The position numbers and the translations under genes were made by a program. Under the pieces are notes generated by a model. That model saw only the letters and a list, made by a program, of their open reading frames with translations, had not been told where the DNA came from and searched no databases. DNA of 64,000 nucleotides from Branchiostoma floridae (lineage: Eukaryota > Chordata > Leptocardii > Amphioxiformes > Branchiostomatidae): contig NC_049992.1 in assembly GCF_000003815.2 (NCBI RefSeq), positions 11,236,753-11,300,752 on the forward strand, in the 5' to 3' direction. Shown in pieces: positions 33,351-63,930 of this stretch (its first letter is position 1; every line of letters begins with the position of its first letter).

Positions 33351-33363
33351 CTTCAATGATTTG

Positions 33364-33528
33364 CTACAGACGACAGGATAATGTAGCGTAGGCGGATTTC
33401 CGGATGATCATTGTCCTCAGCCTTTGCCACTCGTCGAAGTCTGCCTGAAACGATTTCTGTGCAGTCTCGCCCGTCCCGACGATCTTTGCACTGGTGAAGT
33501 CCGCTATCACCACCTTTATGTGCGGTAA
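33364..33528 (-). CDS. Exon: kinase-like DFG region and stop
   Basis: LPHIKVVIADFTSAKIVG carries a D-F-x motif (DFT in place of DFG) in the usual 'VKIxDFGxAK' context. The frame continues QADFDEWQRLRTMII and stops at TAG, before a full C-lobe. Either a short tail or a broken domain (see 33056-33350). Confidence 0.65.
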   Translation of the reverse strand, partial: LPHIKVVIADFTSAKIVGTGETAQKSFQADFDEWQRLRTMIIRKSAYATLSCRL

Positions 33529-36500
33529 CTGAGAAGAAACGTGCACTGTTAACTTATCATCTTTACCAAATAGTTGCATTCAGATCGTCAGTCGCAATCT
33601 TCATGACTAGGGAATAGCGTATGACTATGAGAGTGTTGTGGGTCGATATCTACAATTCTTCGAAGGAGGTTATATAGGGATTTTTGTTTGAAGTAAGTAC
33701 ATATACAGTTCGTTTCATGAACATAGCCTACCAACATTTCTCCTTATGATTCTAAATGATTCTAACGGGTGTGTTGTGTAGACATATCTTCTCAAAGCAC
33801 GTGCACACTGCTTTAAAGGCTTGAAGAATTTGGACTTTAATCAAACAAATCGAACATATTTTTCGTTAAAAACTATTGGTCGTTGAAAACTATTGGTCGT
33901 TGAAAACAGTTGACTACGAAGTATGTGTTTAAACAGAGGATGATGAGTCTAACCTTCTCTACCAGTACTCCGTCCAGAGTCAGTTTGCCCAGGGCGATGT
34001 TTTCCTGGTGTAGGAAGTGCAGTGCTTTGGACATGTCCAACGAGATGGTCAAAAGATCTTCCGATGACAGAGTTGGGATAACCTCCTTCAATTTGCAATT
34101 CTCATAGACAGTGTACAGAACCCTGTAACACACCAAAAAAAACGGTGAATGTACATTGCAGTGCACTGATAGGGAAAATTTGAGAACCTGCGGTGACCAT
34201 CGAGTAATACAAAAGACTTAAAAATGGTACACGCTGTTTTCTCTGCTTAGCACTCAGCATTCGGGAAAGAATATGGAAGTTGAACACACACTACTACCAG
34301 TGGACTAGCCCCCCTGCTGTAGTGATTGCACAAAGTTGTGTGGCCCAGGGCTACTGAAACGGAGATGGCGCCACCCTATGTGCGGGAAGGACTTTGCCCT
34401 CGACTTGCAGTTACTATAAAAGGCAGCTAACGATGTAAACTAGACCTACAAGTCCAACTACGTACCACTTGTAGGCGTCCAACTCTGGGATAACGCACTG
34501 TCGCACGATGTTCTGGTGACCACCTGACTCTCCTATCCGCCGTAATACTGACATCTCCTGTGTAGCCGATCCCTCAACCAAGACTGTAGACTGTATAGTA
34601 AGTAATAGAATAATAACGATTAATATTGTGTCTGGGCCTTGGAAATTAAGACCATGTCATGACTCCAACTACCACGAACACGAAATGGATAACTACTACT
34701 CTGTAGAAATGGACGTATACCTGTGACAAAAGTAAAATATTCCCAATGATAACGTTGTCTCAAAATTTCTCTGTTCCGCAAGAAAAAAAAAAGATATCCG
34801 AATGTTCTTAGGCGATAGTGGAAAACAGCACGTATCAATGTGGTGCAAATTTATCACATCGTAGGAATCGTTGCAGAGAAGGAAAATCGAAGATGTACGG
34901 ACTATAGACCCTTCTGTTCCGTTCGGTGGTCGCCATTAATCACCCGGCACAAGGGGAAGGAAAACTAATTACAATCAAACAAGCTATTCACAACCGTTAT
35001 GTAAGGCGTTAAATGTTGTCTTGGTGGCTCAATTTAGAAACCATTTTGGGTTTTGCACAATCAGCAGACGTTTGACGAAGCCGTTAATGTGAAGATGTAT
35101 GTAGAGGATAATGGATCAAGACAAGATAATGCGTACCGTTCGTCACGGCATTCTCCGGGGAAATTAAAGCCATTTAGAAAAGTAAACTCAATCTATGTCT
35201 GAAGGCAGAAGATTGAAATTTCACGTATGGTCACAGTATAGCTCTGAGTAAGCGAACTTGGGTGCCTGAACCGGACATGCGTAAATAGTTATATAACTCA
35301 TTACCACAAGACAACTATATTCTGTGCCTTTGTCTGTGAAGGTTAGACATTCGCGGATTAAAATACGTAATCAAGGTAACAGCTACACAAGCAACTGAAT
35401 AGAGTTTGGAAATGGTCAGGCGTTTCAGGCACAATCTTTCACAAGTGACTAAACGATATGGTTCACGTGGATCAGAGGACCGATTGAAAACCTGGTGAAC
35501 CACATATCCTATTCAGCCTCTGACAAAAGGCAATGGAGACCTAAAACGTTTAGCCGTTTAAAAAACACAAAACAACAACAACAAAGTATCCAGTTGCTTG
35601 ACTACGATTGCTAGCCTGGTATCCATCCGAAATATAGCTCCCAAGTCTCTTCACTCCTTTTCGCAATTACTAAGAGGAGAGAAGAGACCCGGGGGCTATA
35701 TTACGGCTGGATACCAGGCTATACGCTTGCGTTCTGTAACTATGTTATACTGAAGAGTAGTAAAGTTGTTTGGTACGTACATAGCTCCGAAACTGCAGGA
35801 TAAGTTTGACGACAAAGTTTGTTTCCACGTCGACGCTCAAGCACTGTAGATACGCCTTGATGGCTTGTTTCTCCTCGGTCTGGTCTGATCCTGTCAGAGA
35901 ATGCAGAAGAAATCATTTCATGGTTAACGCACCAACCGGGGTATCTCATAAGGACGTGTATATGAATACCGATTTGGTAACTAAATTTACTTCATAGAAA
36001 TGATTGGATAGCAAACATCACTCTCTACTGCCATACAGCATTCATCAGGGTTAAGAACTGAGACCCTCCACAAGAAATAAATGCACCATATTAAATCGAA
36101 TTGATGTACTTCGCTCAGTAGGAACTAGAGGACGTTCTACTGATTTGCCCCATACATGAAGTACCTGTTTGACGCACAGAGGAACGTTTCAACTCAAGTC
36201 GTCGACAAGTAGAACATATTTCAAGACATGTGTTGTTCGTCCGTCAAGTCGACGAGGACCATAGATACCAGTCGATAGTGTATAACACCGCAGGATCATC
36301 GCTACACTGTACCAGACAAAGGTCCAGGATGACACTAAATGGCTTTACCAATACATTAAGAGAGGAAAATACGTAGAAGAAGATCATTTGGACCCATGAA
36401 ATTCTTTAAAAGGTCTTCATCAATCAGTTTATAAGCAATCAATAAATGTTTGCCAAGGAGTGTGCGCGAGGGCGAAAGGTTTAAGCTTGAAGAATTTAGT

Positions 36501-39500
36501 ACCCCCGGGAACATGATACAGGTGTGCCAGAAACGATAGCATTTTTTGAGAGAGGTCTTTAAACGTCGTTTGTGAAAACCATGGACATTAAAATTGACAG
36601 AACGTCGATGTTTTCAGGGACATGGCAATATTAAACATAGTCCACAGACTGACATTCTTACTGCGTTTGGAGAAGATACAGAAATGAAAGTTGACAGCCT
36701 GCCGATGTGTTATAGCGCCATCCGTCCTCCACCAAACACAGATAACAGGGCCATTCGTCAAGATTACTCTTCTTCGCGAAACTCGTAACTGTATCTTAGA
36801 ACTAGAGCGAACCCTTCATCTCTGGCCATGCAATCCCGGTTATTCCGGAAAGCCAACCTTTGATACATGACAATAATGGAGGTACATTTCGTCTTCATCT
36901 TACTAATGGACCCGGGTCGTGCCCCTCCGTCAATCGTCGGACAATTGCAGAAACATCTAGGCGTGCATCACAATGTTACAGCTTCCTGTGAGTAAGGTTT
37001 TTTTTATTTTTTAGTCAAGCTTATCGCACAACGATTGTAATAGGTACAATGTATGGCAAATAACGTATAACTAGCAACTACAAACTATCTACATCAGTAC
37101 ACTAATCTAACATAATAGAAAATATGGCGGTATAGTGTATTTCACATTGTTAAAGCACTACTTCTTTTTTGCATAGCATTATATATATATTAGCCTAGGT
37201 ATAAGCGTAGAGATTGGTGTATCTTCAACTTTTGATTTCAAGTACATCTATATACCCCTGGCTGTTGACCGTTAACAGAGAGGGAAAAATTTAGCAGAAA
37301 TGTATATCATATCAGCCTGTATTTCATCATGATATGAAGATCATCATCATCTTCAACCGTAGATATTTTGTGCTTGGTTTTTCAAAATGCATATCTATTT
37401 AACTGTTGTAATGTACGTATACTCATGTACAAAAATGTACTATGTATCCATGGGGCTGATCATTTGCTTACCATTACTTCTGAGAGTGCCAGTTGATGCC
37501 TTGTAGACTCTTCTCCCCAGGGAATCCACGAAAGTATTCACAATGTTTCCGTTGGCTTCGGCACAGTTTGTGGCCTCTCTTTTGTCAGAAGAAAAGTCTG
37601 CCAGGCTCGCGAGGTGTATAAACGGGTCAATGCCGGCAGATATTGTCATCAGGAACAGGGCAGTCCAAACGGCAAGGTCGGGCGAGATCTTCTCGCCGAC
37701 TCTCGTGAGAATTCCCGTGATTACCACCACGGTCCAACACAGATAATTTAGCACCAGCAAGCCCTTCAAACCAAGGCGTAATTTTTTCTCTTTTGCTGAA
37801 TCCTTGCTGAAATACAAGTCGTTTGCTAGCGGGTTTGGCTTGCCAGCATAGAATGCTATGATGCTCGAAACTGTAGTAAGCACCATGATTGTTGCCGGCA
37901 AGATGGTGTACACGAAGAAGACATACTTCCATCCCGGTTCAGCACTGGACAACACGGTTGTCAGAACAGGCGTGCATAGCCCCGTCCTGCTGCCGATGAA
38001 GTATCCAGTCAGCTGGGATGAAATAGTCAGAGTTATCGTGCAACAAAATGAAAGCGTCCAACACACGGATGCCACGATCGAAGGAGAGTGCATTCTGTTC
38101 GTCAGGTATTTGATTGGAAGCCGAGGAAACACGTGATTTTCGAGCATTATTGCTCCGACGAGAAATAGGGACGACATCTTGGAGAAGGTGAAGACGACGG
38201 CAGCAGATGCACACATTGTGCTAGAGATCCAGTGATCAGCATAAAAGATATACTCTCCACGGAAGAATGCGTCTGCAGAGCCTATTACTAAGAGATACAG
38301 TCCTGTACAGAAGTCTGCCACCGCCAGGTTACATAGGAACGCCGTCCACGTGCCGCCATGTTTAGTCCTCAAGTGTTGAAGAACAACTGTCGGGTTTCCT
38401 AATATGGACAACAGCCCCAGAACCCACGTGGTTATTCTCAGGACGTTACTGGCGATGAGATGGTCGCATGTAGAGGTGGGGTCTTTCTCCGCGGTACAGA
38501 CGTTTACTCGTGGGGCAAGGCAGCAGATGATGTCATCATCTGCAACACTGTTGACAACCAAGGAGAGAGAACAATGGTAACAGTTAGCTTCGATGAGACG
38601 CTCTTTTTCCCTTTTATGTGCAAACTACACGTATCAATGAGTTAGGATGTAAAATTGACAGTATGGATGGGCAGTTGTATACGATCTAATGTAGTAAGGA
38701 GAAGATACAATGCAATAGTCTATGATAGAATACAATCACGTCAAGAAGTACAGAACTTACAGAAGTCGTAAGTTCTTCATGTGATCGAAGACGTCCCTGT
38801 CGTATTTATCGATGTTATTGCCACTCACATCTCTGAAACAGAAACGAATATGAACCGTCAAGACAACTATAAAACCATTTACCAAAACTTTGTGACTAGG
38901 ATAGTGAGTGTTGTATCTTCTCTGTGCCTTTTACTTAAAGATCGCAGTGTGTCGCCTCCGGAAAAGGGCCGCTAGCAAAATTTGACGTGTAGACCCCCCT
39001 CCCATACTACAACTTCCATTGTTCACCCTGTACCAATACAGGACGCTCTCAATCCGACCTTATTCTCATACCAATTGCACACCGTCAGTTTAACTCTTGT
39101 ACGAGCGCCAACAGTCATAGACCAGAAAGTCATAAGGCAGCTTTGATNNNNNNNNNNNNNNNNNNNNNNNNNNNNNNNNNNNNNNNNNNNNNNNNNNNNN
39201 NNNNNNNNNNNNNNNNNNNNNNNNNNNNNNNNNNNNNNNNNNNNNNNGCAGACTCATAATTGATAGGAATAAATACTACATGCTGGGCACCACAACCAAT
39301 CCAAAGGTCGCGAACGTTTCTGGACTTATATTGCACATCTACACGTTTTGTGATGAAAAGCAATCAGTCATAAAATGCCATCGGTCGATCATTGTCGGTA
39401 AAATATTACGTTGTCTCTGACGTTGCACAAACAGAGATGCAATTAGCGAAGGAAGCCGGAAGGACTTACAAGACTTGGAGTTTCTCTAGTCCGCTGAAGC

Positions 39501-39740
39501 TTGAGGACCTCAACGCCGTTATCAAGTTCCCACTTAGATTTCTGGAAAGAAAGTTTTAAATGTACTCTTATGTATTTCATGAATGTTCAGTATTCTATTG
39601 CTGCTAGTGTGTGTATGCATGCAGGATAGTGTGTGTATATATGTATGTATGTACGTTTGTATAAACACGTGTGTGTATTTGTGTGTAGTATATATGTGTG
39701 TACGTGTATGTGTGTGTGTGTGTGCGTGTATGTGTGCGTA

Positions 39741-39774
<34 letters not shown>

Positions 39775-51700: not shown

Positions 51701-54180
51701 TGACTCTTAAAACTAGTTATGTGTTTTTGAACAGACGTGCCCCAGTAATATTTGAAATCAATTTGGTACGGAATCCGGTAACTGCCTACGGTAACCTATT
51801 TGCTGACACACACGGTCGCCAAAGGGTAAACTGTATTTAGATTTAAAACCTCGTTAAGTTTTACATGCTATATTATGCGTGGAAATTACGCAGACTCTTT
51901 AGCCTCTCCTCATCAGTTATTAGTGGACTGATTAGACATAGATAAGTGGATTATCTTGTTATCGCTGTTAAAGGCGTCTTCGTTAACCCCTCGAGCAACA
52001 CCATCAATCCACGAAGCGTTCCAATTTAAATCGTCCTAAGTCTCGCCGACTGCATGTGACAGGTATTCAGCTGATGAGGGTATTGTATTGCATTTCTATC
52101 AGGAACCGCATCAACTTATTGATTGATACTTCACCTTCATTTCATCAGCAGAAAATACTATCCCTTACGAAGGTTATGATAAATGTATAAGGTAATTAAT
52201 GATGATGGTCTGAATTACACTTTTGAAAATCAACTGTATCATGTAAACAGAGTATGAGGATAGAAAACATCAAAACTAGCTAATTGGTTCTCGCAACAAC
52301 GCCCACTTTCTTTGCTCGGGAACGAACTTTTGACATAGTTACATTCAGCTTCATAGGTTTGATGAAGGTTTTATTTCGTTAACTTAGTTTAACAATGGTT
52401 AAAGGTATACTATACGGTACATTGTCTTCATCGCAGTATAGCAGAACAGTTTGATTAAGTATGCTTTACTTTTTATCAAGAAAAAGCAAAATGTCAACTA
52501 CTATATTCATTGAAAGACAAACTAGCAAGTTTAGCTCCGAAAAATCGATCACGCTCCTGAAATTGAACAGCGACTGCCTGCGGCACTGCAGTAAATATCA
52601 CAGGAGTGATTAACTACTACAGGACTCATCTTTAGTGCCAGACGTGCTGCGAGAATCTAATGTTTTAACTTGCTTGGTTAGAGGGTAGTTCCGGGCCTTC
52701 CAAAAACACGTTTAGACAAGATTTCTGTATCATAGCCTTTTTATTACCTCTCAAATTACTGATGAGAATGATTATATACCAACGGTTCGTGAATAATGAA
52801 TATTTAGGAAAGGGTATTAGCAATTTAGACAAATCTAATAACGCATATTTCTTTCCTTAAGTATGTGCCAGATATGTCAGTGTCTCGTCTTGCATTTTGA
52901 TAGACAGAATATGAAAGGTAGAATGTTGAAGACTACAATATTATGGATACCAAAATAGTCCAAATCCTTCTATGGGATCAAATAATTTGCATGACATTGT
53001 ATAGAAACAGAGTTAGGCAAAAACTAGCCAGCTTCACTATGACAATGAACCACACGTATCACCTTCATGAGGTGTGATACGTAAGGATAATACATACAGT
53101 GATGATAGGAGATGCCAGGATGTGAACGACTGTGCTGTGAAGTTTAGTCTGTTGCTTCCAAGCAAGCTGTAATGAAAAACAAACATTGATATTAAGGTCA
53201 GTAGCTATCCTGGAGTAGACAGTGTGATTGAGACTTCATTGTGACGGCCTTATTATTTATTTCTTAATGAATACCTTGTTGCAATGGGGGTGATTTGAAT
53301 ATTACAACCAAGATTATGCATTGGATGTGTTGACGGAACACGTAAAGGCAAATAGATATAATTAATGCTTCACACATAACGCAAATGCTCTGTGAAGCTA
53401 CCCTATAATATTCGTACGTGTATTTAGCAATAACACAAGATTCACAATTTGCAAGATTGGCCTCATTTTCGGTTGCTAACTTAAACTCATGAGCAATTTC
53501 GTCTAAACGCTACATTCAAGATTCAAGATGCAATATTATATTTGATAATTGCACGTCTTTAGATAAGATATTGCAATAAGTAATGAGGGATTTATCTTAA
53601 CCTGGTATCAAACGTGACAAGTGATGTAATGTTTGCCAATGGGATTAGAAGGGAATCAGGTATAGCCACGGTGGAACTTTTTTCAACATATGATATAAAG
53701 ATACGGGATGCTAATGTGGGGCTAGATAAGGACTTGTAATTGAGAACATACAGTTTTCTGGTTGTCTTGTGAATCATGTCTGGCAGCTGCTCAAGGCCCT
53801 TCTGTACACAGGAAACTGTGTCCTCCAAGCAGGAACAAACCACCGGGCAGGTCTTGGCTAAAGGGAGGAACAGTGCAAACTGTCAACTGTCACTCATCAA
53901 GGATTAAAAGGTGCTACAGAGATATCAAATGTGAACCTAACGATTAAAATTATTTTGCCGGAGAGAACACTGACCATTTAGAAATTACCTATTAGTAGTT
54001 ACACAATGGAAATGTGTTGGCATAGACATTGGAGTGGTGTGGTGTATGGTATAATTCATGTTCATAACATAATTGGAAGAAAAAAAGCTTAAAAGAAGTA
54101 CTTTTATAAGTATTAAAAAGTTACTAAATTCATGTGGTATTTGTGGAGTCTGAAAAAAAGGTTCGCGTGTGTGTGTGTGT

Positions 54181-54219
<39 letters not shown>

Positions 54220-57200
54220 TGTGTGTTTGAACCTACCATCTTTTTGCATTGAGCAAAGCACGTGAGTTGGCACCCGTCTGTAGCATTCCGTCGTTGCCGC
54301 CTCCCACCTCTTTCCCGTTCCCTCTTCTTTTTCCAAAACGTTACAAGTGGCTGTTCCTTCTTCCTTTATTTGCATGAACACTTTCGGTTCAGGAAATCTG
54401 GGCCAACATTGGTCGAGGTACTCTTCTATCTGTGGCAGTTTGTCGGTGTGGTTTACCAAAACGACCGTTCCTCCAACATCAGTACACTTGTCATCATAAT
54501 TTATTTCTTGTCCTTTTAGCCGGTAAAGTTTCAGACATGTGGATCCAACCAGAGTCCATCCTTCGTCGCATCCTAAAGAGATATAAGTTTATTGGTATAT
54601 CATGTACTCTAAATTCCATTTTGATATAAATTTACTTTAACTGCAATACTATGCCATTTCTATATTTACTACCATAAATGAATGTCTATGTGACATTATG
54701 TATATTATTGATATGTAAGACCTAATAGAATTGGAAAGGTTTTATTGATTTTAAGAGCTTTTTCCCATAGCATATTTGTGAGAAATGTAGACGGTCAAAA
54801 GGCTTAGAAGGGTACAGTTCGTAAACAGTTAATGTTTTCTTAATATTTGACAGTGTTATGACGTACCTCTTGCGCCAGCCTTACAGATAAAGTTCCTGCC
54901 AGCACGCGGATAGTCACACGGTACAGGGTACCACCGTGTGTCCATGTCCCCCTCCTGCCGCCCTGTCGTCATCAGCGTACAGGTCCGGGCAGCCTTCCCC
55001 TGCCCGGTAGGCTCGGGCGGCCTCCCCTGCCACCTCGTGAACCTAACGGCAACACTGCAATCTCAGCATGTAGCTTGATGTACTACTTCCAACTTAGCAA
55101 AGGGCATTGAGTAATGTGACGTAACTGCATGGTAATCTGATGTCCATTTCTACACAAAGGTTAGAGGTATTAAAATGTTCCAAAAGAATTATCAGCGTCG
55201 TAATTGCGATGTGGTAGTTCCTTTCATCGTACAAAAGTACAAGGTCAGGATTAAGATAGGAGGAATGACTGATGTGGTATATTATCCCTACATTTAGGTT
55301 GAGATTATAGCCCACCCGAACCAATGTCACTTGTCCGCCACTGAATTGAAGTTTGGACCCAGGTTTACCTTATCGTATCCATCACGCCTGAATCATAACT
55401 TTTTACTGCTTCGATATGAGAGCCATAAAATGGCGAGATGTGACCAGAGACCGCGGACATCTATCACTACGTACAAGTTAAGCCTACTGGAGTCGATTTG
55501 GCTCCTCTTTGGACTCCATTGAACCGACTACATCATTTACCAAGTTTTGTAAAACCCAGAATAATGGCTGAGATTCCACCTCAAGGTTTTGTTTCATACT
55601 TGGTAGCAGGGGTTGCTGGAGATTTGTGGGGCTTGGCATACTCTTTGACAAGACAGTCAGCACGCCAAGCACGTCTCCGGAATTCGGAACATCAAATATT
55701 CAAACGGCTCGTTTCTGAGAAGGACGGCTCCTGTATCCTGAAATCCCTTTATCACGGCTTTTCGTCTGGAAACTAATCGGTTATACGGAGAGCTAAGATC
55801 ACTGGAGTCACTGAGTTGCTTCATTTCCATATCGCAGCCACTTAGCAAATTAAGAAGCCTGACGAACGGAAGCTTTGAAGTGGCTTTGATCAAAAGAGTC
55901 GTTAATTCTTTTGAAAAGCAGCTCTAAGAGCAGGAGTGAGGTGCATTAAGTCGAACAAATTTCTTTGCGAGGGTATCAAAATCTCTTAACGACGAAGTCT
56001 TGTAGTTAATCAGTCGTTCCATAACTTGAAGGAGAGTGAAGCACAAGAAGGAAGCATGTTCATTTCGTACAACTTTCAATGATGAATTTGGTATAAAATC
56101 AAAGAGACGTCCTTGCGAATGAGCATTTTGAAAAGTTTTAATCCTTGATGTCTTAATTTTGTTGTGCTGCTATTGTGCAATGCTCCACAAAAGAATGGAC
56201 AAGATGCACAGAGCAGACCGGCAATCGATGTGCTCCTCCAACATTTTGTTTTCATGATTGCGATGTCTATCAATTACTGCCTGCATACGCATGGAGTCTA
56301 TGTTAAAAAGACAAATGAACAAAGAGCGTCAATCCAATCTCGTATGGTTCATGTTCACTATGCTGACTGTAGCGATCCGTCAAACGCTGACCTACTCGGC
56401 GAGAGAGCTGCAATAAATCTGACCACAGCCTATATTGCTGGTGAAATTGATATCAGTACCAGTACCCTTAATATAACAGTTCAATCAAGGCAGAAATGAA
56501 TAGGGAGTTTTGAAATTTACACACCTCGCTGTGTGTGCACATACCACTAGAATACGAAGTAACCTTAACGGTAGTAATGGCCGTTGAGATCAACCAATGG
56601 GCCACAAATATGATTTCGTATCTTATTAAGCAAGGTGGCCCATATACTGTATTGTTGAATTAGATTTCATTTGTTATTAATGATTTAACTAATCTCCAAG
56701 CAGATCTTGCTTGGCATAAGACGGTATACGTATCATAAGCTGGGGAAGGATCGAGTTTAGGCGGCAGAGGAGTAAATTGGCCACGCGTGGCCAATTCACT
56801 CCTCTGTCGGCTAAACTCTTTCCCCAGCTTATGATACTGTCTTATACCACGCAAGATCTGCTTGGAGATTGGATTTAAACTAAGCGGCAGTGGATTGTTC
56901 AGTTCAGTTCCGTTTATTAGAGTTCATTCCTTGACAAAGACTGGTGCCGTTCAGTCGAAAATTTGGACGAGTCTAATTGGATATCACAGTTAAACTGGTT
57001 TAACTACAATGCTACTCACGTGACGTCACTCCCATCAACCCATGCGTACGTTCCCGATGTGCCTTTCGACCGTAAGCCAATGAACGCTGTTATTGGTGTA
57101 CTCCCACCGGCAATCAAGCTTTCTCGGGCCAGCCTCTCGATGAACTTCATCTCGTACGGACTCGTGATGCTCGCGAGAGTTGCGCCCATGTCGCTGCATC

Positions 57201-60200
57201 GCTGCTGTGCGGACTCCCACCACAGCGGTACCTGACTGGCTAAAACCTGGTAGCAGTTCCCTCTGTAGTGGGTAAATCCAGGCTCGCACAGCTCCTCAGA
57301 CAGGTACACGTCTGGAGCAGAGGAGAGTTGTTTAAGTGTTTTGGTGCAGGTAGTGTCAGAATAAAGGTCATGTGGAGAGGTACAATAAACTTCTCGCAAG
57401 CCTCAAAGAGAACAATGTTTTTCGTATAGTTCAGAGCACAAGATATAGGGTAGCTCACCGTCAGGAACTTACGCCGAGAGGCAGATAAATGTAGCAATAT
57501 AAACTGTTATGCTGAAGTATATGTATGACGATCTAACCTTATAGTGAACAGTTGCATTGACTCGCATAGGTAGATAAAGTAGTGTTCATGAAAGTTACAT
57601 TATCTTCTATGGAGCTAGGAATATTGTACGAATAAGACCAATCTTATTTCCTGGCATAACATATAATACCTACTATGCCCTAGCCATTAGATCGTAACGA
57701 ACACCCGATATAATTGACTGAGGACCCTTTCTACAAGCTGCTGCCGCTCCGCTAGTGCAATTATGTACCCTGTTAGGGCGGCGTGCCATCTGCCGTCTCG
57801 ACCAAGTGATTGCTCATAAACCTACCTCCAACCGAAAGTTTTCTACTTTAGTGCTTTTAGGTTTTATATCACCACGGATTGATTATCCTACACCTAGATA
57901 GGGCTACGGTAAAGCCTGTGCGGGTATATCACCGCGGCGTCCTGTATTGCAATCTGATGTTTTGGGATTTTATGACCCCCAGGACGGTGCGTAACGTCAA
58001 AAGGCTATAGATACACACAGCTTTGCGGCACATAAAGGGTAGCAAACTTAATTGTTTCTCCAATGAAGAGATGGGAGGGTAGGTCTGCTTTTTCCAGCCA
58101 TGCCAGGTAGCCAATCCCATGTGTGTCTTGTATGTAGACGAACATTAATAGGATACCTATATAAATACTGGACCTCTGTGAGTAGGGCTGAAAGATAAGG
58201 ATCGTCATTTGGCATTATTTTTCTAAATTGAATTAGTTTTTCCTTGATAAAAGCAAAAGGCGGGCGCCATGGGTTCCCGATTGGGACTTTTCTTCTGCTT
58301 GATCAAGTGAACAGGTCTCAACAGTCTGACAAGGTCAAAATCAAAACTGAAATACAAAACAGACAGTGATGTAATGTACTGTGGAGTCGGTGTCAAGTGC
58401 CATTTGCATATACGTACCTAGTGATTATGTCGCGTGCGGTGAAAACGATAAGAAGGAGAAAGTAGGAAGGAAGTTTTGATTTGGAAACTTTAAATGGCAC
58501 CCATCAGCATACAACGACATGTTGCATGCCACGCATACAATGACATTCAACAGAACAGGTCTATTGCACATTTTTGTTTGAACACAGGCACACACGCAAT
58601 GAACCAGGTCCAGAGCCTGAAGCCAGGTGACGATTTGAGCACAGCTCCATCAGGTGGCCTTTGGTCATGCCCGGCGATCTAACCTCTACCCATCACGGTG
58701 TGGCATAGCCACTCCGAGAAACCCCGAGACTGCCGTGTAGTCCCGGATCAATTTCACACTTTGTTGCCTGTAGAGATGGATCGTTTTGTCCCGTGATGAA
58801 TGGTCTGGGTGGAAGGTAACACCACCTGGGAGCTAATTAATGACCCCCTAACCACGGTTTGGCAGAAAAGGACTACTTTTCAGCACGCTCAATCTTTAGC
58901 ACTCAGCTCAAAATATTGGACAGAACCACCCGTTTAAAGTATGGCGGATTTCGAACTTTAATAATCCTTTCACACTGAGTCAGAATCGACGAAAATGTCA
59001 AAAGCACAATCCCTTCATTCTTTGTAATCACCACAGCTGTCATAAAACATAGTACATTGACCTCTAGGACTTGTAGTTTAAACTTTTCTTACTTTTGTGA
59101 TACTATTATATAACCTAAGTTGGCAAAGAAGAGCAAAATGCAACTTAACTGTATAGTATTAGTATCATACTCACGTATTACGAGTACGTAAAAGGCATCT
59201 ATCTTTAAACGGAATTTAGAAAATGTCGTGAATTTGAAATAAATGTTTTAATTTGCAGGTTGTCATTTGAAGGTTGGGCCAATGTTATTTGTGCTTAATA
59301 TCATTATTCACAATTACGGCAGAAGTAACCAATTACCTTCCATATGCTTGACAAAGGTTGCCTCCTCTTCCATCCAGTAGTGAGCCACAAATCTGGTTTC
59401 AGTACCGTTCTGGCCCTTGGAGAGTTTAATCAGAACTTGATTTGTTGTGGATAAGTAAGGAAAGATGTCATAGTTTTCTGTCAGCTCGTTTGTCGTCTGA
59501 AAACCGCCATTTTTAGCTCCCTCCAAGATGGTGACGTAGTCATCGACGTCACCGTCGGACCTCAGTCTGATTGGCTGGAAGAACATCAGGATGCTCTGAC
59601 CCAGTGGAGAAGTCACGAGCCACTCACATGTAGTGGCTGAAGAATTTGTCGGCGAGAAGATTGTTCCGCAAGAAGCGTCCAGGTTGACACGTGGGCCACA
59701 GGTTGTGGTCTGTGATCTTACGCACTCTGGAAGAAGAAAATAAGATTTATTAAAAGATAAACAAACGAAACCGCTACACAGTAAGATTTGTTAAAGCTAG
59801 ACACGTTGTAGATGTTGCTTTTCTGTGCTAGGCATTTTCTATTCTATTTTTGTATTGGTCGCAAAATAGCGAATCATAAGTCTCAATTCCATTCTAATCA
59901 AGGAGCAACTTGTAAAAGTACACAATATGGTTTATCAAGCGCGACCAGCGGCTTTGCCTAAGTTACTGTGGGATTTCGTAGCCTAATAGGGCCTTCACAC
60001 GGAAATCGAATTAGCAGGAATCAAGCCGAACCAGCCGGAATGAAGTATTTGCAAACTTCGTGTCACATTCGGGACCATTCGGGTGGGAATTCCGAATGGG
60101 CCTTAAATCCCCTTCACACGAGAAGGAATGAGCCGGAATGCCGTCAGAATGAAAATTCTTGTCTATTCCTGTGAATTCGTAGTGCATTCTAGACATTCTT

Positions 60201-61039
60201 ACGGCGTTCGAAATATTCTTTCGGCCACATTCTGGCAGGATTCGAGGTGGCTTGCCGTTTCGGTTCTACATCGAATGAGATAAGAATGTTTCGAATAATG
60301 TTAGAATACCATAGAATGCGGTCAGACTGCAGTCAGAATAGTTAGAATACACTAAGAATCCACTACGAATGCCATTCGATATTTCTCCACTTCGAATGCA
60401 CCTCGACAGTTTTTAACATGTCAAAACTTTCGAGCCAGCCAAAAGAACGGGGACGAATATCTCGAATGCAGTAAGAATGTTTAGAATACAGTACGAATTG
60501 CGAGGAATTGCCACGAATAGAAAAAAAATTTCATTCGGACGGCATTCCGGCTCATTCGTGCTCTCGTGTGAAGGGGGCTTAAAGCTGAACAATATTCATC
60601 GTACAGAATTCTAGTACTTCAGCTACACATCAGGTAAACGATTTACCTGTTTCTCTGAAGGAGAAGAAGAAGCCGCTCTTTGACCACGCACAGCGAGACC
60701 TGTACACTACTTCAACAGAGCTGCTGGAGGACAAAACCGTTCTCCACTCGGTGCGAGCATCTCGGCAGTAGGAGTAGATCAACAACGGGCTGTCACCGGA
60801 TTGGTCGTAGACCTGGAATGTCAAAGAGAAATGATGATGATAGTACCAGTCCTGACAAACTCTATGATCTATGATCTAAAAAAATGAATGAAAAAAAAAT
60901 ATGCAAAGAATAGACAACGACAGATGCGATATTCGTTTGAAGATCCCCAAGATGTTTTCGTTGAAGAGACAATCTGTGATGAAACTAGTGGATGATTGTT
61001 TTTGTCATGAAAAGTCTTGGAACTATTTGTACATGTATG

Positions 61040-61089
<50 letters not shown>

Positions 61090-63930
61090 CGCGCGCGTGT
61101 GTGTAAACATGCTAGTAATTTGATGTTTTAATATGGGTTTAAAAGTTTTTAACCCAGCATTGTGACTGCATACCTCGTCAAGCAAAATTCGGCTGTGTGT
61201 GTAAATATGCACAAGGGATTTAATATTTTGCTATGGGTTTTAAAGTTTCTATCACAGCAGGAAGGCTGTATACCATCCAAGCAAAACTTTGGCTGTCAGA
61301 GGCCCTGTGACGTCCTGATCAAGCAAACCATATCCATCTTCCCATGCGGCGACGGTTTGGCGCTAATGGTTCTTCCTACACTGCACAGCCACTAATCTAA
61401 ACTTCAACGTGGCATTTCGGCTTTCGGAAAGAATGGCCGAGGTTGCCGATCTAGCAATGCCTGTCTGTCTGCCTGCAAGATTACGTTTAATGTAAAACAT
61501 TGAGAGCCTTGAATGTATAATTTATAAGGTATATTAGAATTAGAAGGTTGCTTGAATAATGGAATGCGGAATTCCAAGAATATCGCCAGAACTAGACAGC
61601 AGTAAACAGAAGCCTGACCATACGAGGACAGACAGCCACATTTTTTCAATCAGACGACTAAAAAGCAGCCGCATGTACCTGCACGTTCCAGACACATTAT
61701 GCTTTTCGTGTTTATGAGTTCTGACGCATCAAACTTGAACCAAAGAGACCCTGTAAAATTGAAGAGGAAAACAAGGACAAAGGTGGTCGTAAACGTAGAC
61801 AAATCATTTTTCAATTTTCATCCAGTGTATAATTTGACTCCCCCTTTGACATTCTTAACGTCTGTGAGGGTGTTCCTCGCCAGTATCCAAAAATCGATCG
61901 GTACTGCACTTCGTTAATGTTTCTGCCATATTGCAGACTATTGGCATCGCCATGGAAATGATATAAATCACGTTCCCTTCATGCGTGTTAGGTTAGGGCT
62001 AACCATTTATATTGTCACCCGCAGATCACAAGGGGATAATTCGACTGTTACTGAAGTAGGAGGCCCACCCTTTCGGGTCACACACCGTGTCTTAACTAAT
62101 TAAGTTCCCTCCTATATTAATGATGTATCGGCTGAGTTCGCGCCGATCTCTATGCTCTGTGGCCTCTCACAATATGCTGAAGCAGAGATGGATTACGCCA
62201 TCCAAATGGCAGAGGAATTCATTTGTACGGGAATATTACAGAATATTTCATCTTCAAAACCATGCGACCTTTGGGTGCCAATACGCGATGGGGACACACA
62301 GCATATTGAAGTCAACGCCATCGATTTGTGAAGGCTAGATAACATACATTATTGGAAATAGTAAAAGCAGCGGCGAGCTATACAACGAAATATTCTCATT
62401 GTAAAATGTCGCGTTTTTACTAGACTTAGGTGTGCAGAGAAAGCGCAGAAAATGGATGAGTTGGATTTTGTATTACGTCGCCACCTTGACTTTGTACTTG
62501 ACTGTGAAATATTCTGGGGAACAGTTAATGTACCATGACAGCCGCAGACTTCCTCATCTTACAGCTTAGCGATCTTACGAATTTGTCATGCGTTCTTTTG
62601 CCGATGAGGACTTCTGCGGGAGATGATTTAGAAACTTCTGCGGTAAAGATGGTCCCTTAGAAACTGGTGTAGCCTTGCTATTTAATAAAGAAGTAGTGAT
62701 GCATTTGGTATATGTGTGCAAGACTTGACTCTAAAATCGGCAGCAAAAATAATGACAAGACTTTTTTCACAGACGATATGTGTTGCATTTGAGCAATAGT
62801 TCTGTAGCGACAGTCCATCATACAAACGAATCGTTGCCTGAATTGTTCTACAGGGACCCAATCCCTCTTGCAGAAAATAGAAGTCGCGTTGTAATCTTAA
62901 CGAGAAATGATGAATACCACTCTGCGGTACGGCCCATATATCTTCCTAGTTCATACGGTCACAAGAATGTGTCGGGATCATTGCAGCAAAACGATCGTTC
63001 CGCGGGAAACTAGGCTGTATGCCATCGATTTAGACTTTCAAGACGCGGCCCAGATCTGATTTCTTCCCGCGGAGAAAATAGACCACCTGTAGCCGTCCCG
63101 ACGGAACATGTCTTGGATATCTGGTGTCGGTAGGGAATGCCTTACACGGTGTACAGTAGCCTCAAGTGTTGCTACTCCATACGGAGACTTATCAGCTGGC
63201 GAGCTGCCTGCCACTCCTCTTACCTCCATGAGTAATGGACCAAGTCCAGTTCCTTTACAGTAATGCATTAATTCATTTATCATGTTGGGTTATCAGTTTC
63301 CTCCGGGGAGAGGCGTAGATAGGTACCCGTACACTTCACAGAAGGGTATATACTTGTAATGAGAGTGAGTAGTAAAGGGAACTTAGAAAGGACACGTACT
63401 TAAGTCGGTCGATCGTAGAGAGGCTTACAGGAAAATGGACTGCAGTTAGAAGTGCGTTAGAAATGGCGCCTTGGCAAGCTCACCCCAGGGATGGTGGTCT
63501 TTGACCGCTTATAGATCTTCACCAAATGCGTCTGGTATAATGTAAGAAACTTGGAATTGATTTGAAACTCTTGTGAAAGTATGACTTCTGTTGTCATGAT
63601 GTTCGTACACATTATCTACATGTTTGATTATGTTAAGTACTGTATGCTTGCCAAATACATTATCGTGAAGTTTATAGTTGCAAAGTTTGGGTGATACCTG
63701 TAAGTCTTCTTCACACAGATCCTTCATCCCTTTACAGACAAACTGGACATCCTGCATTGCGGAGATTGGTGAGAAATCCAGCTTGAGGTTGCTGCCACTC
63801 TTGCTTTCAATCATGATGTGATAGTCCAGGTTAGTGGAAGCCTGTTGAGGTGCCTGTCTGAAGCTACCACATTTCTCAGTCACTGAAATCGTTGAGTTTT
63901 CGATCAAAAGATGAGAGAAGTCTTGGCAAT
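33364..63930 (-). CDS. Mosaic GPCR: CUB-CUB-CTLD-CTLD-LRR-7TM-pseudokinase (5' end outside window)
   Basis: Seventeen exons on the minus strand: 63930-63698, 60812-60647, 59726-59337, 57311-57020, 55042-54867, 54572-54237, 53857-53752, 53166-53098, 43658-43587, 39541-39470, 38832-38761, 38547-37472, 35890-35781, 34590-34466, 34122-33954 and 33528-33364 are coding and phase-compatible at all junctions (16 listed; further upstream exons must exist). Total 3,629 nt, 1,209 residues to the TAG. Order: two CUB domains, two C-type lectin domains, an LRRNT cap, four LRRs one per exon, a cysteine hinge, a rhodopsin-family 7TM in one exon, and a kinase-like tail. LRR plus 7TM matches LGR/RXFP and molluscan GRL101-like receptors. 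A plasma-membrane receptor with matrix- or glycan-binding ectodomain is inferred. The tail link rests on phase match and proximity. No signal peptide is in view. Confidence 0.75.
33954..34122 (-). CDS. Exon: kinase-like hinge and catalytic-loop region
   Basis: VLYTVYENCKLKEVI looks like the hinge. ALHFLHQENIALGKLTLDGV then LVEK corresponds to the 'ALxFLHxxxIxHRDLxxxNVLL' helix E and catalytic loop. The HRD triad is replaced by ALG and the loop Asn by Gly, so the catalytic base is absent: a pseudokinase pattern. Phase 2 start, phase 0 end. Confidence 0.75.
34466..34590 (-). CDS. Exon: kinase-like N-lobe with helix C
   Basis: STVLVEGSATQEMSVLRRIG then ESGGHQNIVRQ. The E-M-x-x-L-x-x-I-G...G-G-H-x-N-I-V string is the helix-C/beta-4 signature of protein kinases (helix-C Glu followed by hxNIV). 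Phase 0 start, phase 2 end. Confidence 0.7.
35613..35722. mobile_element. ~108-bp hairpin MITE
   Basis: AGCCTGGTATCCATCCG and CGGCTGGATACCAGGCT are inverted, extending inward through AATATAGC(T)CCC / GGGGGCTATATT and AGTCTCTTC / GAAGAGAC. Lies in the intron between the kinase-like exons at 34466-34590 and 35781-35890. Confidence 0.8.
35781..35890 (-). CDS. Exon: start of kinase-like cytoplasmic domain
   Basis: 36 codons, SDQTEEKQAIKAYLQCLSVD then ETNFVVKLILQFRSY. Enters in phase 1, which matches the 7TM exon end, and leaves in phase 0. The VVKLI segment may be the strand that normally holds the ATP-anchoring Lys. No glycine-rich loop is seen, so either it is lost or an exon between 35891 and 37471 is missed. 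Confidence 0.5.
37472..38547 (-). CDS. Exon: cysteine hinge and rhodopsin-family 7TM domain
   Basis: Starts with DDDIICCLAPRVNVC and HLIASNVLRITTWVLGLLSI, the Cys hinge and TM1 entry of LGR/RXFP-type receptors. TM1 has GNPTV (GN motif), TM2 LCNLAVADFCTGLYLL (LAxAD motif), TM3 starts at the Cys of MCASAAVVFTFSK. The TM3 end reads MLENH where most members have (D/E)R-aromatic; TM6 has LCW without the usual Pro; TM7 ends AGIDPFIHL instead of NPxxY. Fold and subfamily are clear, but the activation microswitches are non-canonical. A strong donor (AATG|GTAAGC) 32 bp before the ORF stop shows that the coding region continues. Confidence 0.92.
38761..38832 (-). CDS. Exon: LRR 4
   Basis: 72-nt exon, DVSGNNIDKYDRDVFDHMKN then LRL. 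24-residue LRR, phase 2 on both sides, directly before the 7TM exon. Confidence 0.88.
39148..39247. other. Assembly gap (N), 100 bases
   Basis: A 100-base gap between LRR3 and LRR4. A 72-nt LRR exon could be hidden here, because a phase-2/phase-2 exon would not disturb the frame. Confidence 0.9.
39470..39541 (-). CDS. Exon: LRR 3
   Basis: 72-nt exon, NLSGNLITALRSSSFSGLEK then LQV. 24-residue LRR, phase 2 on both sides, strong GTAAGT donor and TTTCCAG acceptor. Confidence 0.88.
39692..39772. repeat. (GT)n microsatellite
   Basis: Imperfect GT run in the intron upstream of LRR3. Other GT runs in this gene are at 54165-54227 and 61042-61105. The His/Thr-rich ORFs there are artefacts. Confidence 0.9.
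40711..41285. repeat. ~130-bp direct repeat flanking a MITE
   Basis: 40711-40845 and 41153-41285 share GATCAGCAGCGTAGTGCGGG, TCGTCCCAATTCATTG and TTGTGTAGATTTGTATTTTT. The MITE at 40869-41080 lies between them, so a tandem segment has been interrupted by the insertion or duplicated next to it. Confidence 0.75.
40869..41080. mobile_element. Complete TACTGTAAATGC MITE (212 bp)
   Basis: Ends TACTGTAAATGCAG and GCATTTACAGTA are inverted. The interior repeats ACCGCGAACTTAAATCCACC and GCGGTGGATTAATG blocks in both orientations. Two other copies lie at 45584-45752 (169 bp) and 3081-3138 (partial). Confidence 0.88.
41286..43586. other. Intron between LRR2 and LRR3, remaining part
   Basis: Apart from the debris at 42440-43015 I see no exon, repeat or RNA gene. 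Confidence 0.5.
42440..43015. other. Coding-like debris in the LRR2-LRR3 intron
   Basis: Minus strand 42577-42690 contains IPLANITSFVTFDATLIQMD; a related text IPLANITSLVTFD is at 53598-53690, also in an intron of this gene. On the plus strand 42772-43011 reads GLELLRPDQSTMHFAADCLI and SPFVNAQKRQHFIDFLPETP to a stop. Neither has splice signals in a usable phase. Probably repeat or gene fragments of unknown origin. Confidence 0.3.
43587..43658 (-). CDS. Exon: LRR 2
   Basis: 72-nt exon, DLSNNSIQQLPENAFGTLHT then LLL. Textbook 24-residue LRR (L-S-x-N-x-I-x-x-L-P-x-x-A-F-x-x-L). Phase 2 on both sides. Separated from LRR1 by a 9.4-kb intron that holds the long-TIR transposon. Confidence 0.9.
44738..45440. 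repeat. Left long terminal inverted repeat
   Basis: Inverse of 50993-51706. The 64-aa ORF in it is identical in the other arm only because the arms are copies, so it is not called a gene. Confidence 0.9.
45584..45752. mobile_element. TACTGTAAATGC MITE nested in the transposon
   Basis: Ends TACTGTAAATGCAG and GTATTTACAGTA, flanked by TA. Same family as 40869-41080, inserted between the left TIR and the transposase ORF, so it is younger than the host element or has been carried with it. Confidence 0.85.
46752..50285 (+). CDS. DDE-type transposase of a TTAA-targeting element
   Basis: Uninterrupted 1,177 codons. N-terminal Cys/His clusters (CPKHRYDL...CAHPEH, CNPCRKR) may bind zinc, followed by a low-complexity Ser/Thr/Gln linker (~160-260). 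Residues ~400-640 hold the conserved core before the catalytic region. Candidate catalytic acids are D666 (IVMDWAMKFLP), D750 (LRSDNAGCYHC) and D782 or a later acid (DFSDPQAGKDICDRK). A C2H2 finger spans 924-948 (C-x4-C-x12-H-x5-H). An AG acceptor (TTCTTGCAG) lies just before the second Met (MSCSFGS), so translation may start there after a 5' intron. Assigned as the element's transposase because it is the only ORF between matching TIRs. Superfamily uncertain (Sola3-, Kolobok- or piggyBac-related). Base composition is more GC-rich than the flanks. Confidence 0.85.
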   Translation: MRFYVLAANMSCSFGSPDSECGLSRYYPEDISVIPLSACNKDVTNYLATLGLSGRGHGQTDLSEQDLILNRSGRFGLSEEEKNNLTVCPKHRYDLTTRWTGGRRNTCAHPEHVGRKTALKEPRRVPMFLSTQMYRTYNTVVPVGSAMCNPCRKRAVKDAERDVERPTGSQDLSSDQPGPSSYPQSTMGPPSQPVGTAASTSTALKATSQVSSSESSSVISETPIVETTFESQSSSTSEGEANISTWVDEQHQQEQNREALNKAVDQITEGRISPLRSSLNTPWEEVTERQRNYYLKKTREVMSATMSVIAPGQESDLWRSLVQAPPLYEEPPAKKKMWDQQMVQTLVKAYQEADTWQTRQQILSLFADDYTKDELQELIPGLSKWRIDQARAHASESGPGKPVQQQPIYRTRLNPVKTDHFLAFLTQLHLLQDVVYGTKTMKLDSGEVITIPAAIRTIIPSRIIQQYSQYCTSANFQPLPDRTLFKIIEVCAARQQKSLQGLDYISTEGAEAFDAMCSVVDSLVQNGASADWAKTVTHKLKEGKRYFKTEYKTHVKLEDRCGDHCIAFALSEKGKETLSVRCNHSHEIACERCSEIDSSLLEVQKMIEEEGLLTEEHKSRLCFTFEQSSSAIYSWKSHLLRAVNQDLAKQSALQQLDTKSALIVMDWAMKFLPLKYREQMTDFFGKRGRSWHVSAVITKGDEGKYDVECFVHIFNNCRQDWSAVCAILQSVLQTIKSENPSLTNVFLRSDNAGCYHCAPLILSLPAIGKKTGISVLRFDFSDPQAGKDICDRKIASMKTHIRRYVNEKHDVLTAEHMKEALESHGGVKGCRIAVAQTDEANKEQARQKWEGVKSWNNFMFETDEDIRVWKAFGVGVGEVVTFATVPQTHDLPTLTITAPFGPPQSHTSHITTSAGGTKSALFCCPEPGCVAAFSSANKLEDHMDVGEHCKELERESTYDKIRKQWAQAVTGIAHGPGLASQSLGEGSGVGVGGSARVVNEGWAIRTVKGGQRMSDKMKTYLTDIFNQGAKSGQKADAVQVAHEMQHVKGADGKLLFQPNEWRTAKQITSYFARLSAAQRQKESTESENTDMEAIDEESEWQELRKTVYTSIDYSHPVMFEDINLCELAKTKGLKSLKLKQLKCISDHFHLPITGSMARKVSFIQALENILSTCTCAS
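50993..51706. repeat. Right long terminal inverted repeat
   Basis: Inverse of 44738-45440; ends TCGTGCAATGACTC before TTAA. Confidence 0.9.
51711..53097. other. Intron sequence right of the transposon
   Basis: AT-rich, without ORFs of note or recognised repeats. A short palindrome GTATCACCTTCATGAGGTGTGATAC is at about 53056-53080. Confidence 0.5.
53098..53166 (-). CDS. Exon: LRR 1
   Basis: 69-nt exon, LLGSNRLNFTAQSFTSWHLL then SS(L). One 23-residue repeat with the L-x-x-N-x-L..F...S-F-x-x-x-x-x-L pattern. Phase 2 at both sides. Confidence 0.75.
53752..53857 (-). CDS. Exon: LRR N-terminal cap (LRRNT)
   Basis: TCPVVCSCLEDTVSCVQKGL followed by EQLPDMIHKTTRKL. The Cys pattern C-P-x-x-C-x-C-x6-C and the G-L-x-x-L-P-x-x-I tail are the classic LRRNT cap. 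Starts in phase 1 (after the CTLD2 exon) and ends CT|GTATGT in phase 2, the phase of every LRR exon that follows. Confidence 0.85.
54165..54227. repeat. (GT)n microsatellite beside the CTLD2 donor
   Basis: GT run only about 4 bp from the donor region of exon 54237-54572. The GU-rich RNA strand is antisense to the gene, so the transcript carries a CA run, which may act as an intronic splicing element. Confidence 0.85.
54237..54572 (-). CDS. Exon: C-type lectin-like domain 2
   Basis: GCDEGWTLVGSTCLKLYRLK opens it, followed by DDKCTDVGGTVVLVNHTDKL and ATTECYRRVPTHVLCSMQK. The W-x-L-x-G-x-x-C-L-K start, the D-K-C-x-x-x-G-G-x-V-V-L helix/strand and the C...V-L-C end fit a divergent CTLD held in a single exon. 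It lacks the WxDG and WND signatures. The phase-1 join to the preceding exon gives ARG-CDEGW. Confidence 0.65.
54867..55042 (-). CDS. Exon: second part of C-type lectin domain 1
   Basis: FTRWQGRPPEPTGQGKAART then C, and WYPVPCDYPRAGRNFICKAG. The W...E-P...C...W...C...F-I-C-K order closes the lectin fold. An E-P dipeptide is present at the QPD/EPN sugar-contact site (EPT here) but the WND calcium motif is replaced by RWYPV, so canonical Ca-dependent sugar binding is doubtful. Confidence 0.85.
55500..56500. other. Coding-like debris in the CTLD1 intron
   Basis: Plus-strand frames read QGFVSYLVAGVAGDLWGLAY (55561-55776) and MVHVHYADCSDPSNADLLGE (56164-56499); minus-strand frames over 55657-56050 are also rather open, with stops. 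No family recognised and no splice-compatible phases. Possibly a decayed gene copy. Confidence 0.25.
56690..56870. mobile_element. ~180-bp hairpin MITE
   Basis: AATCTCCAAGCAGATCTTGC and its complement form the ends. The arms continue through ATAAGACGGTAT, TATCATAAGCTGGGG and GGCAGAGGAGT to a perfectly palindromic centre GGCCACGCGTGGCC. Flanked by TTTAACT and TTTAAAC. Confidence 0.88.
57020..57311 (-). CDS. Exon: first part of C-type lectin domain 1
   Basis: CEPGFTHYRGNCYQVLASQV, then WWESAQQRCSDMGATLASIT and FIGLRSKGTSGTYAWVDGSD. These are standard CTLD landmarks: C-x-x-G-F/W-x-x-x-x-x-x-C-Y, W-x-x-A-x-x-x-C, G-A-x-L-A-S-I, F-I-G-L and W-x-D-G-S. Phase 1 start, phase 2 end. Phase 1 joins the CUB2 exon. 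Confidence 0.9.
57312..59336. other. Intron between CUB2 and CTLD1
   Basis: No repeat, exon or RNA gene recognised. Confidence 0.5.
59337..59726 (-). CDS. Exon: CUB domain 2 (complete)
   Basis: 129 codons. CGPRVNLDASCGTIFSPTNS opens the domain, followed by CEWLVTSPLGQSILMFFQPI, DVDDYVTILEGA, LSTTNQVLIKLSKG and RFVAHYW. These are the strand and Cys landmarks of CUB (C-G-T-I-x-S-P, C-x-W-x-I/V, D-Y-V-x-I-x-E-G, F-x-A-x-Y). Phase 1 at both ends, as usual for shuffled extracellular domains. Confidence 0.85.
59988..60582. mobile_element. Two neighbouring 'CTTCACACG' inverted-repeat elements
   Basis: 60106-60582 has ends CCCCTTCACACGAGA and TCTCGTGTGAAGGGGG, with inner arms GAATGAGCCGGAATGCCGTC and its complement. 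Its interior is an array of short 'aGAATg' / 'cATTCg' words (for example CGAATGC, TTAGAATAC). 59990-60103 begins GGGCCTTCACACGGAA and ends GAATGGGCCTT, apparently a shorter relative. Non-coding. Confidence 0.8.
60647..60812 (-). CDS. Exon: second half of CUB domain 1
   Basis: Starts VYDQSGDSPLLIYSYCRDAR in phase 0 and ends FFFSFRET(G) in phase 1. The 'V-Y-D ... L-I-Y-S-Y-C ... V-V-Y-R-S ... F-F-F-S-F' order is the typical second half of CUB (D-G, C, then the final F-x-F strand). Confidence 0.7.
61042..61270. repeat. (GT)n microsatellite followed by a ~107-bp tandem duplication
   Basis: After the GT run, TGTGTGTAAACATGC...TTTTAATATGGGTTTAAAAG recurs as TGTGTGTAAATATGC...TATGGGTTTTAAAG, each followed by GCATACC / GTATACC and CAAGCAAAA blocks. 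Confidence 0.75.
61271..63697. other. Rest of the intron inside CUB1
   Basis: No exon with matching phase found. The ORF at 63038-63283 (minus) has no domain pattern. Confidence 0.45.
63698..63930 (-). CDS. Exon: first half of CUB domain 1
   Basis: Begins after TTTTTTTCAG in phase 1, ends CTTACAG|GTATCA in phase 0. Encodes DCQDFSHLLIENSTISVTEK, then a CGSFRQ...LDYHIMIES and LKLDFSPISAMQDVQFVCKG segment ending CEEDLQ. The alternation of beta-strand text and the L-x-F-x-x-I pattern fit a CUB domain; paired with the exon at 60647-60812. Confidence 0.65.

Follow-up and report, generated by a model that had tools for sequence, protein, structure and literature searches.

Does one gene of the lancelet Branchiostoma floridae encode a G-protein-coupled receptor (GPCR) that carries a kinase-like module in its own tail, or do two separate genes lie side by side? 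The question is raised by the minus strand between positions 63930 and 33364 of a 64,000-nucleotide stretch of contig NC_049992.1 (assembly GCF_000003815.2, forward-strand positions 11,236,753 to 11,300,752), which is called the window here and whose numbering is used throughout. A first-pass annotation had proposed a single gene with CUB, C-type lectin and leucine-rich repeat (LRR) domains, a seven-transmembrane (7TM) domain and a C-terminal pseudokinase. The gene of the window is designated T, its paralogues A, B and C, and the tail exons E13 to E16 are also termed K1 to K4. Our results indicate that the fusion is very probably real, that T is one of a four-member family found in this genome, and that its tail is a pseudokinase which is truncated and has been conserved in that state.

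The junction between receptor and tail

Sixteen exons (E1 to E16) were located on the minus strand from 63930 to 33364. All 15 introns are bounded by GT and AG and join exons of compatible phase, and the joined exons give an open frame of 1,212 residues with its sole stop at its end, which bears out the single frame proposed earlier (at 1,209 residues). The exons on either side of the junction are the following:

37472..38547, minus strand: E12, rhodopsin-class 7TM domain (7tm_1 47.7 bits; donor AATG/GTAAGC, phase 1)
35781..35890, minus strand: E13 (K1), beta-3 strand with the VVK lysine, no glycine loop (same phase in A and B)
34466..34590, minus strand: E14 (K2), helix C with conserved glutamate, HQNIVRQ (same phase in all four loci)
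33954..34122, minus strand: E15 (K3), from the hinge to helix E, with the degenerate catalytic loop ALGKLTLDGVLV (same phase in all four loci)
33364..33528, minus strand: E16 (K4), DFT motif, conserved DADFDEW-type segment and stop (same phase and an early stop in all four loci)

A search of the genome with its own E12 gave 15 matches, itself included, and tail exons adjoin each of the three best others, designated A (C3:20.84 Mb), B (C3:20.97 Mb) and C (C3:26.54 Mb). Searching with the tail gave 20 matches (25 candidates scored), 12 of which fall in the four loci T, A, B and C at E values of at most 0.13; the remaining 8 have E values of at least 1.29 and by eye resemble other kinases. Each of the four tail loci has a related 7TM exon immediately upstream, which argues that the fusion is no chance neighbourhood, and no tail locus without a receptor was found among the candidates scored. 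Three further 7TM relatives (L012 to L014, on C4, C18 and C1) were scanned over 9.9 kb of downstream sequence and show no tail; one chance match at L013 (E 2.5) was to an appended open reading frame (ORF) rather than to the tail. The remaining E12 matches are covered by the tail search, to the extent of its 25 scored candidates.

The order of the tail exons is identical across loci. Phases into K2, K3 and K4 are 0, 2 and 0 in all four, the phase into K1 is 1 in T, A and B (3/3), and phase-1 donors that fit phase-1 K1 acceptors are present in all four loci. The intron between the 7TM exon and K1 measures 1,581 bp in T, 234 bp in A, 481 bp in B and about 298 bp in C. From the unspliced 7TM stop to the K1 acceptor there are 145 bp in A, containing neither AATAAA nor ATTAAA, and 197 bp in C (to its tentative K1), again with no poly(A) signal. 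For A, this gap all but rules out the arrangement that the first-pass annotation had set against its own proposal, a 7TM exon ending at its own stop (37440 in T) and the tail in another gene. A 7TM domain and a C-terminal kinase fold are thus found in one frame, both in the genomic frame of T and at the paralogous loci, and the proposed GPCR with an intrinsic kinase-like module gains support from three diverged paralogues in which the same tail exons follow the 7TM domain in the same order.

The tail exons K2 to K4 are more alike than E12 in all six pairs of loci (54/37, 44/29, 35/30, 61/52, 34/29 and 35/25% identity), a comparison in which the identity of E12 is lowered because that exon also encodes linker before the first and after the last of its seven helices. 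Nonsynonymous and synonymous distances (dN/dS) between A and B are 0.28/1.64 (roughly 0.17) for K2 to K4 and 0.35/2.29 for E12; both figures should be considered rough because dS is high. For T and C, K2 to K4 give 0.65/2.54, and no dS was computable for the other pairs. Judging from these values, the tail is under purifying selection. In a tree of seven 7TM domains, T, A and B cluster firmly (100/100), and a branch with support 79/84, recovered in 78% of bootstrap trees, sets the four tail-bearing members apart from the other three; label shuffling did as well 26 times in 500. A single gain of the tail in the family is favoured, not shown, by the tree.

The tail as a kinase-like domain

When the tail of T was scanned alone against Pfam, it matched Pkinase at 30.9 bits (cut-off 31.7; E 2.4e-7; profile positions 17-155 of 263) and PK_Tyr_Ser-Thr at 26.0 bits, above the cut-off of 23.1. 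The best Pfam kinase E values for the four tails are 2.4e-7 (T), 8.2e-6 (A), 2.6e-4 (B) and 1.4e-7 (C), and a curated cut-off is passed by T and A. A profile of the four tails was compared with PDB sequences; all 51 listed at E values of at most 0.001 are named protein kinases (FLT3 appears once as FL cytokine receptor), with a best E of 2.9e-5 and a single matching region that runs roughly from beta-3 to DFx. An hhalign comparison with five kinase ORFs taken from this genome gave a probability of 98.4%, and against the same five the real profile scored up to 26.2 bits versus at most 3.1 for 60 column-shuffled profiles. Note that these ORFs had been selected among weak matches of the tail itself, and both tests somewhat favour the tail for that reason; the Pfam and PDB comparisons are free of this bias. 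Similarity to the protein kinase fold from the beta-3 strand to DFG is therefore found in the tail. An NCBIfam scan of the tail gave weak matches to prokaryotic kinases only, far under cut-off. No close full-length kinase relative of the tail appeared among the candidates scored in this genome, where all matches outside the family have the E values of at least 1.29 noted above, and the donor kinase group is left unnamed for that reason. A kinase-like ORF elsewhere in the genome (L031, G000:C1:26695462) has the catalytic loop HGGLTPSNVLL without the HRD aspartate and is apparently another pseudokinase.

The HQNIV, ALGKLTLDGV and DF-x motifs named by the first-pass annotation were all found, DF-x being DFT in T and DFS in A, B and C. 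The beta-3 lysine is kept in three of four tails (VVK in T and A, VTK in B; VVR in the tentative K1 of C), and the helix-C glutamate and the DF of DFx are retained in all four. GGHxN follows helix C in three tails, and B has GSLQN. HRD is replaced by LGK (T, A), LGR (B) and LNG (C), which puts K, K, R and G in place of the catalytic aspartate, and T or S stands where the lysine of the catalytic loop would be. Neither a glycine loop nor an APE motif was seen in the four tails (for the glycine loop of C, by way of its tentative K1). Pfam kinase matches stop at profile positions 150-161 of 258-263 in every case, and a stop codon lies 42-59 residues into K4, so helices F to I are absent. A conserved segment before this stop, ADFxEW in T, A and B and DIKDW in C, may represent helix F.

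Just after the K4 stop of T lies an out-of-frame ORF of 98 amino acids (33056-33352, minus strand) that by eye resembles kinase helices H to I. It was not counted as a C-lobe because it has no Pfam match, because nothing like it was found downstream of A, B or C at E values of up to 10, and because a genome search returned only the ORF itself. Of the kinase-like module as first proposed, the homology stands; the module is truncated and lacks the catalytic aspartate, and in T a kinase-less isoform could arise by intron retention. From its residues, the tail is very probably non-catalytic.

The receptor half and its surroundings

The closest PDB match of a profile built from the four 7TM domains is RXFP1 (E 2.5e-47, 164.8 bits), followed by LHCGR, TSHR and FSHR; the top 18 PDB sequences are RXFP1, LHCGR, TSHR, FSHR, LGR4 and one unnamed family-1 GPCR. 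T thus combines a rhodopsin-class 7TM domain nearest to those of LGRs with an ectodomain of LRRNT and LRRs. At the DRY position the four members read ENH (T), QIH (A), HMY (B) and DRV (C), and at NPxxY they read DPFIH (T), NPMIQ (A), NPLIQ (B) and NPFLY (C). T, A and B therefore have no Arg or Lys at the DRY position and no NPxxY tyrosine; C keeps DR and NPFLY and is canonical. The residues lost in T, A and B are ones usually needed for G-protein activation, and their loss suggests that G-protein signalling may be reduced there. We consider such reduced coupling in these three of the four members possible, at somewhat short of even odds. Counting against it, the alignment has a one-column gap at the DRY position, RXFP1 itself reads EKY there, and loss of DRY and NPxxY is suggestive only and no proof by itself that coupling is lost.

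The remaining exons of T encode the ectodomain:

63698..63930, minus strand: E1, first CUB-like domain, first half (CUB 17.9 bits jointly with E2; 44% identity to A)
60647..60812, minus strand: E2, first CUB-like domain, second half (60% identity to A)
59337..59726, minus strand: E3, second CUB domain (Pfam CUB 35.5 bits; also in A and B)
57020..57311, minus strand: E4, C-type lectin domain 1, first part (Lectin_C 45.8 bits jointly with E5)
54867..55054, minus strand: E5, C-type lectin domain 1, second part (Lectin_C with E4; also in A and B)
54237..54572, minus strand: E6, divergent C-type-lectin-like domain 2 (identity 38% to A, 36% to B)
53752..53857, minus strand: E7, LRRNT (cysteine pattern only)
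53098..53166, minus strand: E8, LRR 1 (LRR models)
43587..43658, minus strand: E9, LRR 2 (LRR models)
39470..39541, minus strand: E10, LRR 3 (LRR models)
38761..38832, minus strand: E11, LRR 4 (LRR models)

In the whole 1,212-residue protein, Pfam finds LRR_8 (60.9 bits), Lectin_C (45.8), 7tm_1 (44.2) and CUB (35.5). The four LRRs named in the earlier proposal are matched by LRR models, and the LRRNT is recognised by its cysteines. Its two CUB and two C-type lectin domains fared less evenly: the second CUB and the first lectin domain are matched by Pfam, the first CUB stays below cut-off (17.9 versus 21.4 bits), and the Pfam scan gave no match to the second lectin domain (E6). The labels of these last two rest on residue pattern and exon position for that reason. 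No LDLa was among the Pfam matches of the 1,212 residues, a stretch that does not include the gene's 5' end.

Upstream of the paralogous 7TM exons, tblastn recovered parts of E1 to E7 in A, parts of E3 to E7 in B and lectin-like parts in C. Separate pieces matching E4 are found in all three, and in A an extra intron splits this exon. In the paralogues tblastn missed most of the short LRR exons, and for a CUB in C it gave nothing besides one match at E 3.7. A signal-peptide exon was sought by scanning; the single candidate within 6 kb upstream of T was poor, and none appeared within 8 kb upstream of A.

Stretches of N, either gaps in the assembly or masked sequence, occupy 39148-39247, about 2270-3090 and a site near 27150. 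The first falls inside the intron between LRR 3 and LRR 4, so a small exon could be missing there. The intron between LRR 1 and LRR 2 holds a transposon-like element (44753-51681) around a plus-strand ORF of 1,193 amino acids without Pfam match. Its inverted arms measure 477 and 119 bp (98% complementary) and 107 bp (79%), and a 178-residue piece of it is 100% identical at C3:5486628 and C12:22867103, which suggests recent movement. Elsewhere in the window, exons of sialyltransferase (GT29) genes lie at 11151-17179 on the minus strand, apparently as two tandem copies (53.2, 82.9 and 96.4 bits), and a minus-strand ORF at 22096-22485 contains a segment that we take by eye to be prohibitin-like; for the ORF as a whole, Pfam gave nothing at E 0.001.

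Weighing the explanations against known systems

Our preferred reading, which we consider probable, is a single gene for a 7TM receptor resembling type-C LGRs, with a truncated, catalytically dead kinase-like tail that serves as a docking or allosteric platform. The CUB, C-type lectin and LRR ectodomain would recognise a ligand, either a glycan or a protein; the 7TM bundle would hand a conformational change on to the tail, and the tail would act non-catalytically on a partner kinase or adaptor. The N-lobe-stabilising beta-3 lysine, helix-C glutamate and DF-x aspartate are mostly retained, and the residues that perform chemistry are gone. Exon order, phases, homology, lost catalytic residues and purifying selection are read from the sequence itself; the ligand class, the partner and a bypass of G proteins are what we infer. 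A bolder version, advanced tentatively and with a chance well below even, is a chordate 7TM receptor largely off G-protein signalling that relays through its own pseudokinase tail, with pattern-recognition modules as its ectodomain, and that would be the first such bilaterian fusion.

Several observations weigh against the preferred reading, in addition to the linker in E12 mentioned above. The K1 exon of C is tentative, since other candidates in the scan exceeded its score of 2.4. Phase-2 donors slightly outscore the fitting phase-1 donors in A (567.5/563.8) and C (376.6/367.1). Tails B and C fall under both Pfam cut-offs, C by 0.1 bit, and within the whole protein of T the Pkinase match drops to 25.8 bits, below the cut-off of 31.7. 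The tail has neither a glycine loop nor a C-lobe past DFx. E1 opens with a phase-1 acceptor, so the 5' end of the gene lies upstream and is missing from the model, and the support for the fusion comes from the genomic sequence of one genome.

The strongest competitor, though itself unlikely, is that alternative isoforms exist, a kinase-less receptor produced by intron retention and early polyadenylation and a tailed form in which the tail is a regulated add-on. In T the unspliced 7TM frame stops at 37440, ten residues past the donor, and an AATAAA (37003-37008, minus strand) follows 463 bp into the intron. Poly(A)-type signals are present in this intron in both T and B, another point against our preference, and make kinase-less isoforms possible; they are absent from it in A and C, and the stronger conservation of K2 to K4 than of E12 in every pair would be odd for a minor isoform. 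Less probable by a good deal is that the tail is an active atypical kinase relying on other residues. Certain kinases missing a motif are nonetheless active, and the retained beta-3 lysine (3/4), helix-C glutamate (4/4) and DF-x aspartate (4/4) would suit one; the tails have, however, lost the HRD aspartate and the catalytic-loop lysine along with the glycine loop, the APE motif and the substrate-binding part of the C-lobe.

It is very improbable that there are two neighbouring genes, with the LRR-7TM receptor ending at 37440 and a separate pseudokinase gene downstream that was duplicated with it as a block. The stop and intronic signal of T would fit such a pair, A has an in-frame ATG upstream of K1, which also speaks against fusion, and an order common to paralogues would by itself suit block duplication too. 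Against this stand the short signal-free gaps of A and C (the latter to a tentative K1), the want of any in-frame ATG upstream of K1 in T, B or C, the fitting phase-1 donors of all four loci, and a tail search that gave no receptor-free locus. That the tail is a decaying kinase remnant of little function (a relic fusion or pseudogene) is equally improbable, since its truncation, missing glycine loop, lost HRD and an imaginable C-lobe leftover in ORF 33056-33352 are set against an A-B dN/dS of roughly 0.17, the conservation of K2 to K4 above E12, tail exons that are open in the chosen models of all four loci (K1 of C excluded), and the lack of any Pfam or other genome match for that ORF.

The single-gene reading must also be set beside what is known of lancelet genes. 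Banyai and Patthy (PMC4967905) caution, in the accessible part of their paper, that novel lancelet architectures are often mispredictions and that truncated globular domains are a sign of them, a warning that tells against a truncated tail. The paralogues answer much of it, though less fully than RNA would. For amphioxus GPCRs, a 2008 survey (PMC2246102) reports lectin and CUB domains in Adhesion GPCRs, and a term search of its accessible text gave no word starting with kinase. LGRs of the RXFP and GRL101 types are described in a 2014 study of how LGRs arose (PMC4079206), whose accessible text mentions no kinase tail. A literature search of open-licence PMC papers, of which parts of the text were available, and without database annotation, turned up no account of a kinase-like tail on any amphioxus GPCR.

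Catalytically impaired kinase folds form the cytoplasmic part of other signalling proteins, among them the kinase-homology domains of receptor guanylyl cyclases, HER3 and JAK JH2; unlike T, these have no 7TM domain and their kinase-like domains are full-length. Kinase domains behind a 7TM domain are recorded outside Bilateria. An eLife 2025 survey (PMC12716839), whose proteome set included B. floridae, reports GPCR-TKL/K in acanthoecid choanoflagellates and GPCR-TK in choanoflagellates and sponges, and an mBio 2018 paper (PMC5784254) reports GPCR-TKL bigrams, with kinases described as TKL, in oomycetes and amoebozoans and terms GPCR-bigrams in metazoans 'rare or even nonexistent'. As far as the accessible parts of these two surveys go, GPCR-kinase fusions are absent or nearly so in animals other than sponges. 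If the present reading is true, a four-member chordate family would mean that such a fusion arose again within Bilateria, on a 7TM domain of hormone-receptor type, and a tail that outconserves its 7TM exon gives experiments a direct way to learn what a kinase fold contributes to a GPCR without catalysis.

Like the GPCR-TKL/K and GPCR-TK proteins (PMC12716839), T unites in a single protein a 7TM domain and, C-terminal to it, a domain of kinase fold, and the GPCR-TKL bigrams (PMC5784254) share with it a C-terminal kinase-like domain on a GPCR. T differs from the former, as they are described in that survey, by its LGR-type 7TM domain and its truncated pseudokinase. With RXFP1/2 and the GRL101-type (type C) LGRs it shares a rhodopsin-class 7TM domain behind an LRRNT-LRR ectodomain. 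Unlike them, T has CUB and C-type lectin domains and no LDLa match in its 1,212 residues (5' end missing), and its family has a pseudokinase tail and, in three of four members, altered DRY and NPxxY motifs. The architecture is real and unusual, a variant of the GPCR-kinase fusions built on an LGR-type receptor and with a pseudokinase in place of the kinase.
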